Part shown: piece by piece, positions 40,601-46,600 of the stretch | Position numbering within the stretch: the stretch's first letter is position 1 | Layout of the letters: each line of letters begins with the position of its first letter | DNA from: Haliclystus octoradiatus | Taxonomy: Eukaryota > Cnidaria > Staurozoa > Stauromedusae > Haliclystidae | Assembly (NCBI GenBank): GCA_916610825.1 | Contig: OU744450.1 | Coordinates: forward strand, 5,414,030 to 5,478,029 | Direction: 5' to 3' | DNA length: 64,000 nt | The notes under the pieces: model-generated | The model's input: only the letters and a program-made list of their open reading frames with translations | What the model was told of the DNA's origin: nothing | Database searches by the model: none | Made by a program: the position numbers and the translations under genes

Positions 40601-43600
40601 GCTGAAATTGAATGATAGATGCAAGCCAACAAATTAAAGCTCAACTGGAAAAAAACTGAACTATTAGTTATCAGTTCCCGTTTTTTAATAACTCAAGTAA
40701 CATGTGTGTTATATCCGTCAGCATATTGGTGTTATCTTTGACAAATTTTTAACCATGACAGAGCATATTAACAAAGTCTGCAAGCAATTATCAAGTCATC
40801 ACTATTTCAAGCAATTATAATCAAAGAGTTCTGTGAAATTTCTGTGAATAATTGAAAAACTATTTTTGCTTACCTCCATGAACTTGTTTAACTTTGATTT
40901 CTGATTTTCTATGGCATCTTGATTGGAGTTTTCTTTACTAAGTAATTCCTACAAGAAGCCAAATGATTAAGAACATCTGACGAGAATGATTATAATAGTT
41001 CATAAAAATGTGGTCAATTTTAATTTCATGAACTTTTGATCAACTAGATAGTCCCCTGCGAAAACAGTTCAGGAGTTCATGAACAGTTCATGAACGTTAA
41101 ATGGCCCCAAATTTTCATGACCTGTTCAGGAACTGTTCATGAGCTGTCTTTGAGGGTTCATGGACTGTTTATGAACAGTTTATGAACAGTTCATGAACAG
41201 TTTAGAAAAATTGGAGCCATTTAACGTTCATGAATTGTTCCTGAACTCCTGAATTGTTTTTGCAGGTGATAAACTGTTTATAAAATCCTCATCTAAATGA
41301 TTGAAGCATTCCTAGCTGATTGAGGGTGCAAGAAATGTAGAAGAAAAGAAGTGCCAAGTTGAACCATGGTTTTGGATTAGCCCAAACAAAATTCATGTTG
41401 CTAATTTACCTCATGTGTAGCAATCAGCGTATCGTATCTTGCAGTGATTTCTCTGATTTCAGAAAACTATAAGAAAGATAGAATTCTGTTAGCATTTCCA
41501 GATAGTAATGATATTACTATGCAGAAGTTTAAAATCAGAATGAAATTATTGTAATAGGATCCACTGCAAAAATGTGTTGAGTTCATGAACAGTTCATGAA
41601 CTTCATGAACAGTTCATGAACATTTTTTTGTGGGTTCATGAACAGTTCATGAACAGCCACAAAGAGTTCATGAAGATTTTTTCATGGACCGGTTCATGAA
41701 ATGGTTCACGAACGTGAAATTGCTCAAAAGTTCATGAGCTTTTGCGCAATTTCACATTCATGAACTCACAAACATTTTGCAGGGGATGGCCGAATTTTCA
41801 TGAACCTTCTTGTGAATAATTCATTTCATGCTCATGAACTGTTCACAGAATATTATTCACCTCCTCCGCCATTTCTAGTACTTTATCCAAGAACTTTTGA
41901 TAAACTGAATTTTTTTCCATCCGATGATGAATTCTATCTTTTCTCTTATGTAAAACCTGGATTTCATCTTGTAATCTAAATCAATCAAATCGAAAAATTA
42001 ATTGCTATGAAATTAAACAATTACAGAAGATTATTTTGAATAGATATGGACGGAAATTATTTATAAAATCAAAAAGAGAATTGAACATAAATTTCTTCTG
42101 TGTAAGGCGTTTAAATTGACCTGATTTACGAAATTAAAGTTTTTGAAAAACAAGTTGTTTGATGATCATGAGCCTTTTATGAAATCTTCTACGGTATCAA
42201 CACATGAACTGCTCACTGATGTAGGCCTACACAAGGTTCTAAATTCAGTAATATCGTTGTTGGTTAGTTAGTTAGTTAGTTTCTTATTTTTGGTTAGTTT
42301 ATTGTTACAAATTGTGAAGCGTTTAGAACATAACGCTATCAGTGCTACATAAAAATTACGATTAGTATTAAGAAATATTATCCAATAGCAGTAAAACAGT
42401 GCTCAACGTCTGTCGACAGAGCTGTAAATATAAATAGGAATCAAAGACCACACACATTTTGTTACTGTAACTTATTATTATTATTATTATTATTATTATT
42501 ATTATTATTATTATTGGTACAAAATAACAACACAACTAAATTTGCACAACGTTTCGACTGATTGACTTCAGCCATTCTCAAGTGAATGTTTTTTATTATT
42601 AATTAAGATATATTTATACATAAAAATGTTTGCCCCTTGAGGGTAAAGTTACATCATGAAAAATATTTACAATTATATGAGATCTATATCAGTGACAACA
42701 GTAACTATGGTAACTAGCCTATAGATATGAAATGCATGCAGTTATTTGAAAACTTTGGCCCGGATGGAATCGCCCTGAACGTTTAATGTTGGTTTCAGTT
42801 CTTGAATTGCCAGCATTTCATTCACGAGACAATCGAATTTATTTTTGCACTTTTTTATTATTCTAAAATGTTTTTCAAATTGATCAGTAGATATTCCGTG
42901 CTCTTGACGGACGTGTGTACCAAGGTTACTTTTGTTATGTTCATCTATGCGTTCATATAAGTGCCGGCATGTATAGCCAACATAGTCTGCTTCGCACAGA
43001 CCACATTTAAAATGATATATGACACATTGCTGGGTTAACAAATCTGGCTTCTCCTCACGGGTACGCAAGTCATCGTTGAGCTTCTTACTTTTAAAAATAG
43101 CATTAAACTTTACACTTATTTTACAATTTAAACGGTAAAGTTCTTTTCTTGTTTCATCACATGAATGTTGGTCTTTAAAAGGTAAAACTATACTAACATA
43201 TTTTAAATTATCGTCTGGTAAAACTGGAGAATTAAAATCATTACTTAGCATTTTATTTAAAATAGAATTAAAAACACGGGGCGGATACTTAAGTTTACTA
43301 AAAATGTTAAAAAGTACTTTACATTCAATATTAAAATCAGCTTCAGAGGAACAAAGACGATGCGCTCTGTGAAGCATTGTCTTCAAAATACCGGTTTTAT
43401 ACCTTTGGTCCACATGACTCTGATAATGTAAAAGAAGTCCTTTGTTTGTTGTTTTTCGATGTACACTTGTTGATATTTCTGTGCCGGTATTGGTCATTTT
43501 GATTCCAAGAAAAGGTAGATTTTTGTTTTCCTCTAACTCAATCGTGAAGTTTAATGAGGAGTGTGCTGCATTCAGAATTGATAATAAGTTTTCTGCTTCT

Positions 43601-46600
43601 TTTCTATTGTTGACAATTGCCAAGGTGTCATCTACATAGCGCCAGTAGAACTCTGGTAATTTATTAGATTCTGATAAAATTTTTTCAATATTGGACATAA
43701 ATACATTAGCTAACAAAGGTCCCAATGGTGATCCCATTGCCACTCCATCTGACTGTTCATACAGCTCACCATCGAATTGAAACAATTGATCTTTGGTACT
43801 GATCAATAATAGGTCACGCAGATCATCAGGCGTTAAATTCAAGGAATACTTTTCATTGAACCAATTGTTAGAAAATGCATCCGTAACCAAAATTTCAATT
43901 GTTTCCAGTAGGGGGACGTTGGTAAACAGAGCACTCACGTCAAAAGAGACCATAATACTACCTTTTCGGAATTTTACGTTGCGTATTTCTTCGCTAAAAT
44001 TTAATATATCTAATATTGTAAAACTATTGATAGCCAAAGGTTTGAGCTTGTCATCTAGCCATTTTGCCAAAAGAAAGTTATAAGATCCCACTGCCGATAG
44101 AACTGGTCGCATTTGTAAGTTAGTTTTATGTGTTTTTGGTAGGCCATATAAATGTGCTAGCCGAGAGCCTTTAGGACAAAGTTTTGTTGCTATTTCTTCT
44201 GGTAAAATTTTTTTTATACATTTATTTACCATTCTTTCTTTATAAAGGAGAGGGTGGGGATGTTTTGCAGGCCTCCCTCTACGTTTTTTATTCGGGTCTA
44301 CAAAGGTAAATTTATCTCGTTTGTCAATCGATGCTTCCATCAATAGTCTATTATTATAGTCTATCACAGCATCTACGCTCAAGTCTATTGCCTTGAATTA
44401 CTGCCGTTTACAAGGACAGAAACCACCTAAGTCTTTACTACGAGCAATATCATCTTTAAAACGCAATAAGAACATTGTAATAACTAAGCCGGATAAGGGT
44501 AATGGTATCGTCATTATGAACAAAGAACATTATAATAGACTATTGATGGAAGCATCGATTGACAAACGAGATAAATTTACCTTTGTAGACCCGAATAAAA
44601 AACGTAGAGGGAGGCCTGCAAAACATCCCCACCCTCTCCTTTATAAAGAAAGAATGGTAAATAAATGTATAAAAAAAATTTTACCAGAAGAAATAGCAAC
44701 AAAACTTTGTCCTAAAGGCTCTCGGCTAGCACATTTATATGGCCTACCAAAAACACATAAAACTAACTTACAAATGCGACCAGTTCTATCGGCAGTGGGA
44801 TCTTATAACTTTCTTTTGGCAAAATGGCTAGATGACAAGCTCAAACCTTTGGCTATCAATAGTTTTACAATATTAGATATATTAAATTTTAGCGAAGAAA
44901 TACGCAACGTAAAATTCCGAAAAGGTAGTATTATGGTCTCTTTTGACGTGAGTGCTCTGTTTACCAACGTCCCCCTACTGGAAACAATTGAAATTTTGGT
45001 TACGGATGCATTTTCTAACAATTGGTTCAATGAAAAGTATTCCTTGAATTTAACGCCTGATGATCTGCGTGACCTATTATTGATCAGTACCAAAGATCAA
45101 TTGTTTCAATTCGATGGTGAGCTGTATGAACAGTCAGATGGAGTGGCAATGGGATCACCATTGGGACCTTTGTTAGCTAATGTATTTATGTCCAATATTG
45201 AAAAAATTTTATCAGAATCTAATAAATTACCAGAGTTCTACTGGCGCTATGTAGATGACACCTTGGCAATTGTCAACAATAGAAAAGAAGCAGAAAACTT
45301 ATTATCAATTCTGAATGCAGCACACTCCTCATTAAACTTCACGATTGAGTTAGAGGAAAACAAAAATCTACCTTTTCTTGGAATCAAAATGACCAATACC
45401 GGCACAGAAATATCAACAAGTGTACATCGAAAAACAACAAACAAAGGACTTCTTTTACATTATCAGAGTCATGTGGACCAAAGGTATAAAACCGGTATTT
45501 TGAAGACAATGCTTCACAGAGCGCATCGTCTTTGTTCCTCTGAAGCTGATTTTAATATTGAATGTAAAGTACTTTTTAACATTTTTAGTAAACTTAAGTA
45601 TCCGCCCCGTGTTTTTAATTCTATTTTAAATAAAATGCTAAGTAATGATTTTAATTCTCCAGTTTTACCAGACGATAATTTAAAATATGTTAGTATAGTT
45701 TTACCTTTTAAAGACCAACATTCATGTGATGAAACAAGAAAAGAACTTTACCGTTTAAATTGTAAAATAAGTGTAAAGTTTAATGCTATTTTTAAAAGTA
45801 AGAAGCTCAACGATGACTTGCGTACCCGTGAGGAGAAGCCAGATTTGTTAACCCAGCAATGTGTCATATATCATTTTAAATGTGGTCTGTGCGAAGCAGA
45901 CTATGTTGGCTATACATGCCGGCACTTATATGAACGCATAGATGAACATAACAAAAGTAACCTTGGTACACACGTCCGTCAAGAGCACGGAATATCTACT
46001 GATCAATTTGAAAAACATTTTAGAATAATAAAAAAGTGCAAAAATAAATTCGATTGTCTCGTGAATGAAATGCTGGCAATTCAAGAACTGAAACCAACAT
46101 TAAACGTTCAGGGCGATTCCATCCGGGCCAAAGTTTTCAAATAACTGCATGCATTTCATATCTATAGGCTAGTTACCATAGTTACTGTTGTCACTGATAT
46201 AGATCTCATATAATTGTAAATATTTTTCATGATGTAACTTTACCCTCAAGGGGCAAACATTTTTATGTATAAATATATCTTAATTAATAATAAAAAACAT
46301 TCACTTGAGAATGGCTGAAGTCAATCAGTCGAAACGTTGTGCAAATTTAGTTGTGTTGTTATTTTGTACCAAAATTATCACCAAGAAGATTCTGATAATT
46401 ATTATTATTATTATTATTATTATTATTATTATTATTATTATTATTATTATTATTATTATTATTATTATTATTATTATTATTATTATTATTATTATTATTA
46501 TTATTATTATTATTATTATTATTATTATTATTATTATTATTATTATTATTATTATTATTATTATTATTATTATTATTATTATTATTATTATTATTATTAT

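Follow-up and report, generated by a model that had tools for sequence, protein, structure and literature searches.

Head-to-head pairs of a Penelope-like element in Haliclystus octoradiatus combine one tailed and one tail-less end

The inverted pair and its element family

The stretch of DNA analyzed here, referred to below as the window, comprises 64,000 nucleotides from the stalked jellyfish Haliclystus octoradiatus (assembly GCA_916610825.1, contig OU744450.1, positions 5,414,030 to 5,478,029 of the forward strand). At window positions 42473-46413 it contains an inverted pair of Penelope-like elements (PLEs) of the endonuclease-bearing (EN+) type, two 5'-truncated copies placed head-to-head. 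The inverted arms measure 1,890 nt when the ungapped run-on into the microsatellite and the centre is counted in, while the arms proper (Table 1) differ by a single base over 1,844 nt, the third base from the central joint. Both arms encode a reverse transcriptase (RT) and a GIY-YIG domain above the curated Pfam scores (RVT_1: 50.4 bits vs. a cut-off of 29.6; PF01541: 23.5 bits vs. 22.6, at residues 501-580 of 594 and hence C-terminal), and their 5' truncation points lie 166 nt apart. The inverted arrangement and the unequal truncation had both been proposed in a first-pass annotation of the same DNA, and both were borne out. At least 43 matches to the element sequence of the pair were found in the assembly (the two window copies counted in), which excludes chance as an explanation for the inverted pair.

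The outer ends of the two arms are not alike. In element sense, the left arm finishes with TTTTGTACC (ending GTACC) and continues into (AAT)n, while the right arm finishes with TTTTGTACC followed by another 28 nt, AAAATTATCACCAAGAAGATTCTGATAA, before (ATT)n begins. The earlier description, in which the two outer ends share a motif followed by (ATT)n, was therefore wrong: the left end is tail-less, the right one is 28 nt longer, and the microsatellites are target DNA. As the flanking (ATT)n lies on the same DNA strand at both sides, the pair was inserted inside an (ATT)n target. The five bases at the centre (AGTCT), judged by their sequence, look like templated end-joining filler.

Genome-wide searches covered the assembly of 261.9 Mb in 33 contigs. 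Positions within the element are given as u, the coordinate in a 2,629-bp unit whose u1 corresponds to window position 44363. Elsewhere in the genome the PLE forms exact tandem arrays of this unit, the largest of which (C8:5689066-5723685) holds 12 full and 2 partial units with (ATT)n flanks, each unit with 0-2 differences from the reference unit. When the unit is read circularly, it contains one open reading frame (ORF) of ~820 residues that starts at u1949 and ends at u1782. Two 3' end sites, ~u2008 and ~u2036, fall ~60 and ~88 nt into this ORF; the 28-nt segment that separates them is the PLE tail. At the level of the family, the RT domain, the C-terminal GIY-YIG domain, the tandem arrangement, the 3' tail (an optional element, typically of 30-40 bp) and a short target duplication are those of EN+ PLEs; the window pair is itself too truncated to display the tandem arrangement or pseudo-long terminal repeats (pLTRs). 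A PDB sequence search with the PLE returned weak RT matches only, and NCBIfam distant RT families below cut-off and nothing further. No hammerhead ribozyme, a frequent though dispensable feature of EN+ PLEs, was detected by Rfam (E up to 5) in 5,028 bases of one locus (L007), where two weak matches to small nucleolar RNAs appeared, and the sole hammerhead-like trace, CTGA...GAAA at the start codon of the ORF, is degenerate. The predicted RNA fold around the start sites (z -1.74; 11 of 200 shuffles fold equally well) was not used.

One tailed and one tail-less end in each pair

In order to count ends, exact patterns were searched over the whole assembly, which yielded 167 ends, 93 tailed and 74 tail-less (70 plus 4 from a second listing); such patterns overlook mutated ends and some ends with a tail-like flank. 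Two entries among the 74 (C6:25339486 and C8:8274675) are in fact tailed and carry a base change; the pairs described below are not affected by them. Neighbouring ends within 20 kb of each other (n = 31) were head-to-head in 26 cases, tail-to-tail in one and in the same direction in four. All 26 head-to-head pairs combine a tailed with a tail-less end, with the two possible orders seen 15 and 11 times and no pair of like ends, whereas shuffling of the labels in 20,000 trials gave a mean of 12.9 mixed pairs and a maximum of 23.

Seven further pairs found by inspection obey the same rule, one of them being a duplicate: the pairs at C10:2655084 and C10:2883748, 229 kb apart, have an identical centre and identical flanks and represent either a duplicated segment or a retained haplotype. 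One more pair came from a seemingly unpaired end whose partner arm had been predicted in advance to be tail-less and turned out to be so. In total, 34 pairs were readable, 33 of them independent, and every one had one tailed and one tail-less end. Among nine apparently unpaired ends that were inspected, two belonged to pairs and one has a 37-nt mirrored piece. The expected outer ends were also kept where the interior had changed, i.e., at C2 5.095 Mb, where the centre is rearranged, and in the C5 array, where the last unit carries an internal deletion.

Target duplications frame whole pairs

Target duplications were assessed in 32 independent pairs, 12 of which have (ATT)n-like flanks and were unmeasurable, the window pair among them, since its site lies in (ATT)n. 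In the 20 pairs outside microsatellites the duplication was exactly 12 bp in 12 and at least 9 bp in 18, compared with 0 of 182 control flanks taken from mismatched loci at the same minimum of 9 bp. Because the duplication encloses the pair as a whole, the two arms must have gone in at the same staggered cut; combined with the one-of-each ends, this identifies a pair as a single integration. The paired inverted integration suggested by the first-pass annotation is thus supported by the ~12-bp duplications of the family and by the two unlike 3' ends per pair; for the window pair, a single-event origin is supported by the family rule and by its own tailed and tail-less ends.

The (ATT)n repeats of at least 21 bp make up 1.26% of the window, and (ATT)n appears to be a favoured PLE target, though the criteria applied to flanks and to the window differ. 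The trinucleotide at the primer end was ATT in 4 of 16 duplications on the tailed side and in 5 of 16 on the tail-less side, with a boundary that is uncertain by bases, and no cleavage motif is claimed.

Private deletion joints and the template

Six pairs hold a joint between distant points of the unit (Table 1), with a microhomology of 0-4 nt where measured. A search of the whole assembly with up to 3 mismatches recovered 24 crossings of these joints, none of them at another locus. Both arms carry the joint in four of the six pairs; the two others have a second arm that stops short of it or has no crossing. The joint-bearing units repeat at 569, 839, 810, and 718 bp, and deletion-derivative units overall measure about 440-840 nt. 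Because the joints are private, invariant, present in up to eight copies and found in both arms, they point to one repeatedly read RNA per event, from which both arms were probably copied; a covalent circle is the likely form of this RNA, as it needs the fewest assumptions.

Sequence variants offered a separate comparison, informative at two loci only, as the remaining pairs are reference-identical or old. Three variants recur in both arms at C8 7.625 Mb and again in the second lap of one of them, with no unshared variant over 1,394 positions; at C1 38.25 Mb, six variants are common to the arms and three are not (1,947 positions). The 5' ends of partner arms are also nearer to each other on the circle than those of permuted partners (median 217 vs. 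640 nt, P 0.0007, 22 of 33 pairs), in an exploratory test conceived after the data had been seen. The exact 2,629-bp tandem arrays fit multiple laps of a template.

Proposed mechanism and alternative explanations

We consider it quite likely that the structure in the window represents one EN+ PLE integration that was copied into both ends of one cut, with both arms derived from one RNA. The GIY-YIG endonuclease would make a staggered cut; with each strand carrying a cDNA at its 3' end, this cut would leave 3' overhangs of 12 nt. Each overhang would then prime reverse transcription, with the proximal (tail-less) start site used on one side and the distal (tailed) one on the other, and both cDNAs would be copied from one RNA read several times, most simply a covalent circle containing the start sites, before host end joining links their 5'-side ends at the centre. 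The window pair would be an event of the same type in an (ATT)n target, with arms that fall off after ~1.85-2.04 kb. A more specific model, for and against which we see the balance as even, assumes a dimer of the PLE protein with both RTs on one circular RNA, at start sites 28 nt apart and primed from the two 3' overhangs of a 12-nt staggered cut, and with both then travelling round that circle; tails, head-to-head copies, and tandem arrays would then all be by-products.

Several observations weigh against a single integration from one repeatedly read RNA. Some ends match neither 3' site: at C8 2.80 Mb a second (+) piece (u2461-2629) stops at u2629 and abuts (ATA)n, at C11 8.76 Mb the + arm stops at u1546, and at C1 12.506 Mb a + piece of 37 nt (u1730-1766) mirrors the - arm. 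The first two may be later losses, while the mirrored piece looks like a short fold-back. A second partner whose type had been predicted beforehand falls in masked N. Two of the 20 measurable duplications are below 9 bp (8 and 4 bp). In several older pairs, unshared variants outnumber shared ones (shared vs. unshared: 2 vs. 15 at C8 3.091 Mb, 3 vs. 11 at C4 20.68 Mb), which is compatible with later mutation and gives no support. A nearest-arm comparison over 159 columns of the 3' ends carries no weight either way, since young pairs are all alike and the sequence taken for short arms ran beyond the arm. In the array at C5:8759185-8775324 variant 758T is confined to units 1 and 3 and 2242C to units 4 and 5, a restriction to particular units that a single circular template does not explain. 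Finally, the evidence comes from one PLE family in one genome.

The joints themselves are ambiguous in one respect, as end-to-end jumping on a linear RNA or a concatemeric source that was later lost would produce the same ones. A linear concatemer as template, arising by read-through of a tandem array or by an RT that repeatedly jumps from the 5' end back to the 3' end of a linear RNA, so that two cDNAs would still be made on both strands with no circle involved, is conceivable, yet we think it unlikely. The 2,629-bp arrays could yield such transcripts, an mRNA of several copies is envisaged in the study of a lizard PLE (PMC11167929), and both the short microhomology at the joints and the differing units of the C5 array are in line with it. 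Six joints confined to single loci, however, would call for six source arrays that are missing from the assembly, or for identical jumps repeated up to eight times and in both arms. The joints common to both arms, and the identity of the arms, might instead date from after the insertion, if unequal exchange multiplied a deletion unit and gene conversion acted between the inverted arms. Inverted repeats can convert one another, the numbers of units are unequal between arms, and variants are partly shared in the C5 array. This origin is nevertheless improbable: several steps would be required at each of the four loci, the one-of-each outer ends would stay unexplained, and the event at C5 18.73 Mb is young, given that none of its units departs from the reference unit.

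In fold-back self-priming, proposed for bdelloid Penelope elements (PMC3846280), a single cDNA (or antisense RNA) bends back at its end and serves as its own template, which yields a palindrome; the near-symmetric centres of three pairs (C1 24.19, C1 34.12, and C6 0.030 Mb) and the mirrored piece at C1 12.506 Mb could be read in this way. It predicts like outer ends, however, which none of the 26 census pairs has, and the arms mostly start at different places (a median of 217 nt apart), while each outer end abuts target DNA with a 12-bp duplication common to both, so that we regard fold-back as a poor candidate. Two independent insertions of the same family that face each other by accident are more doubtful still, even if both arms are 5'-truncated copies of an abundant family that prefers AT-rich targets: the excess of head-to-head neighbours, the one duplication that frames the whole pair and the private joints common to both arms refute this explanation for the family and make it very hard to sustain for the window. 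An assembly or amplification artefact, i.e., a chimeric palindrome, has about as little to recommend it. Palindromes are typical among library artefacts, but 34 loci of differing length that all pair a tailed with a tail-less end, and target duplications of at least 9 bp in 18 of 20 pairs would not be expected from them.

The rule of one tailed and one tail-less end ties tails, target duplications and inverted copies to one and the same event, and the private joints point to one repeatedly read template RNA. A circular template would in addition be genomic evidence that target-primed reverse transcription can use a circular RNA even where no ribozyme is recognisable.

Relation to known systems

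Among EN+ PLEs of the Penelope/Poseidon type, the closest biochemical parallel is PAc of the lizard Anolis carolinensis. In purified form it cleaves and extends both DNA strands in vitro and begins reverse transcription at two neighbouring internal sites, by which the tail is defined (PMC11167929). This first biochemical study of a PLE left unexplained how the two start sites fit with extension on both strands, and circular templates are not discussed in those of its sections used here (PMC11167929). PAc and the Haliclystus family are alike in having an RT with a C-terminal GIY-YIG domain, tandem copies, two 3' sites with a tail between them, and AT-rich targets. As far as those sections go, PAc in vitro has no link between strand and start site, whereas here one of each site is used per integration, and PAc has a hammerhead ribozyme, while none was found by Rfam at the one Haliclystus locus scanned.

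In the bdelloid Adineta vaga, Penelope elements occur as inverted head-to-head copies with duplications of 8-10 bp and a 31-bp tail on one inverted pLTR (PMC3846280). The tail is there called optional and the inversion ascribed to antisense self-priming, in contrast to the Haliclystus pairs, which carry the tail on exactly one side in every readable case and whose unlike arm ends argue for two primings rather than self-priming. Metazoan retrozymes consist of tandem small units, and their circular RNAs are thought to be copied by non-LTR machinery, possibly that of PLEs (PMC7229834). They are described as non-autonomous elements of 150-450 bp with a hammerhead, as opposed to the one-off deletion units (~440-840 nt) or the whole 2,629-nt element found here. 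A hammerhead in each small unit, the hallmark of retrozymes, was not seen in the Rfam scan, which covered the parent sequence of the units. In L1 twin priming, both strands of one cut prime on the element RNA, and the 5' part is inverted with no repeated sequence. In the PLE pairs, by comparison, both cDNAs start at 3' sites and produce inverted repeats.

Published work thus already covers inverted PLE copies, one-sided tails on inverted pLTRs, short duplications, both-strand extension and the existence of two start sites. For the one-of-each rule and for one RNA as the template of both arms, no report was found in the open-access literature, subscription papers being mostly outside the scope of the search.

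Other features of the window

Table 1. Features of the inverted pair, deletion joints of the element family, and further annotated ORFs. Positions given without a contig are those of the window.
Feature	Position	Strand	Remarks
(ATT)n microsatellite, target DNA left of the pair	42472-42515	+	period 3; strand phase as in the right-hand microsatellite
Left PLE arm, 5'-truncated, tail-less end ...TTTTGTACC; RT and GIY-YIG	42514-44357	-	residues 282-820 of the tandem-unit ORF
Central joint AGTCT	44358-44362	.	extends a direct repeat of the neighbouring ATAGTCTAT
Right PLE arm, tailed, 5' truncation 166 nt further upstream	44363-46398	+	residues 228-820 of the tandem-unit ORF; stop at 46144
28-nt tail, right arm only	46371-46398	+	holds a TTATCA...TGATAA inverted repeat
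(ATT)n microsatellite, target DNA right of the pair	46398-46764	+	~122 copies
Joint u2351>1780	C5 18.73 Mb		8 copies: 3 on - arm, 5 on + arm
Joint u2477>1635	C1 34.12 Mb		5 copies: arms 4 + 1
Joint u2440>1630	C7 17.19 Mb		6 copies: arms 5 + 1
Joint u2276>1837	C7 2.765 Mb		2 copies: arms 1 + 1
Joint u2401>1684			2 copies, one arm only
Joint u2349>~1772			1 copy, one arm only
WD40 repeats, intronless 268-residue stretch	25682-26485		Pfam
Integrase core (rve) ORF, retroelement/transposon remnant	52820-53425		Pfam

The first-pass annotation had placed the pair inside a ciliary gene, which was not confirmed: a Pfam search with ten window ORFs returned one WD40 and one integrase core domain and no domain in the other eight. 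The PDB chains closest to the WD40 ORF are generic WD40 proteins; the dynein assembly factor DAW1 is one of them, though it does not rank first.

A perfect 93-bp inverted repeat (46836-46928 / 47003-47095) adjoins another (ATT)n. Its region is 88% similar over ~300 bp to C2:17259780-17260100 (L091), which adjoins a further PLE insertion, and it therefore belongs to a dispersed repeat carrying (ATT)n. Weak protein matches to the endonuclease part of the PLE at 14088-14213 (43%) and 32147-32335 (33%) are, by sequence, probably remnants of other PLE families. The window also contains a 74-bp unit repeated 8 times at 99% (8845-9453) and an 11-bp palindromic minisatellite, TTCATGAACAG, scattered at many sites.

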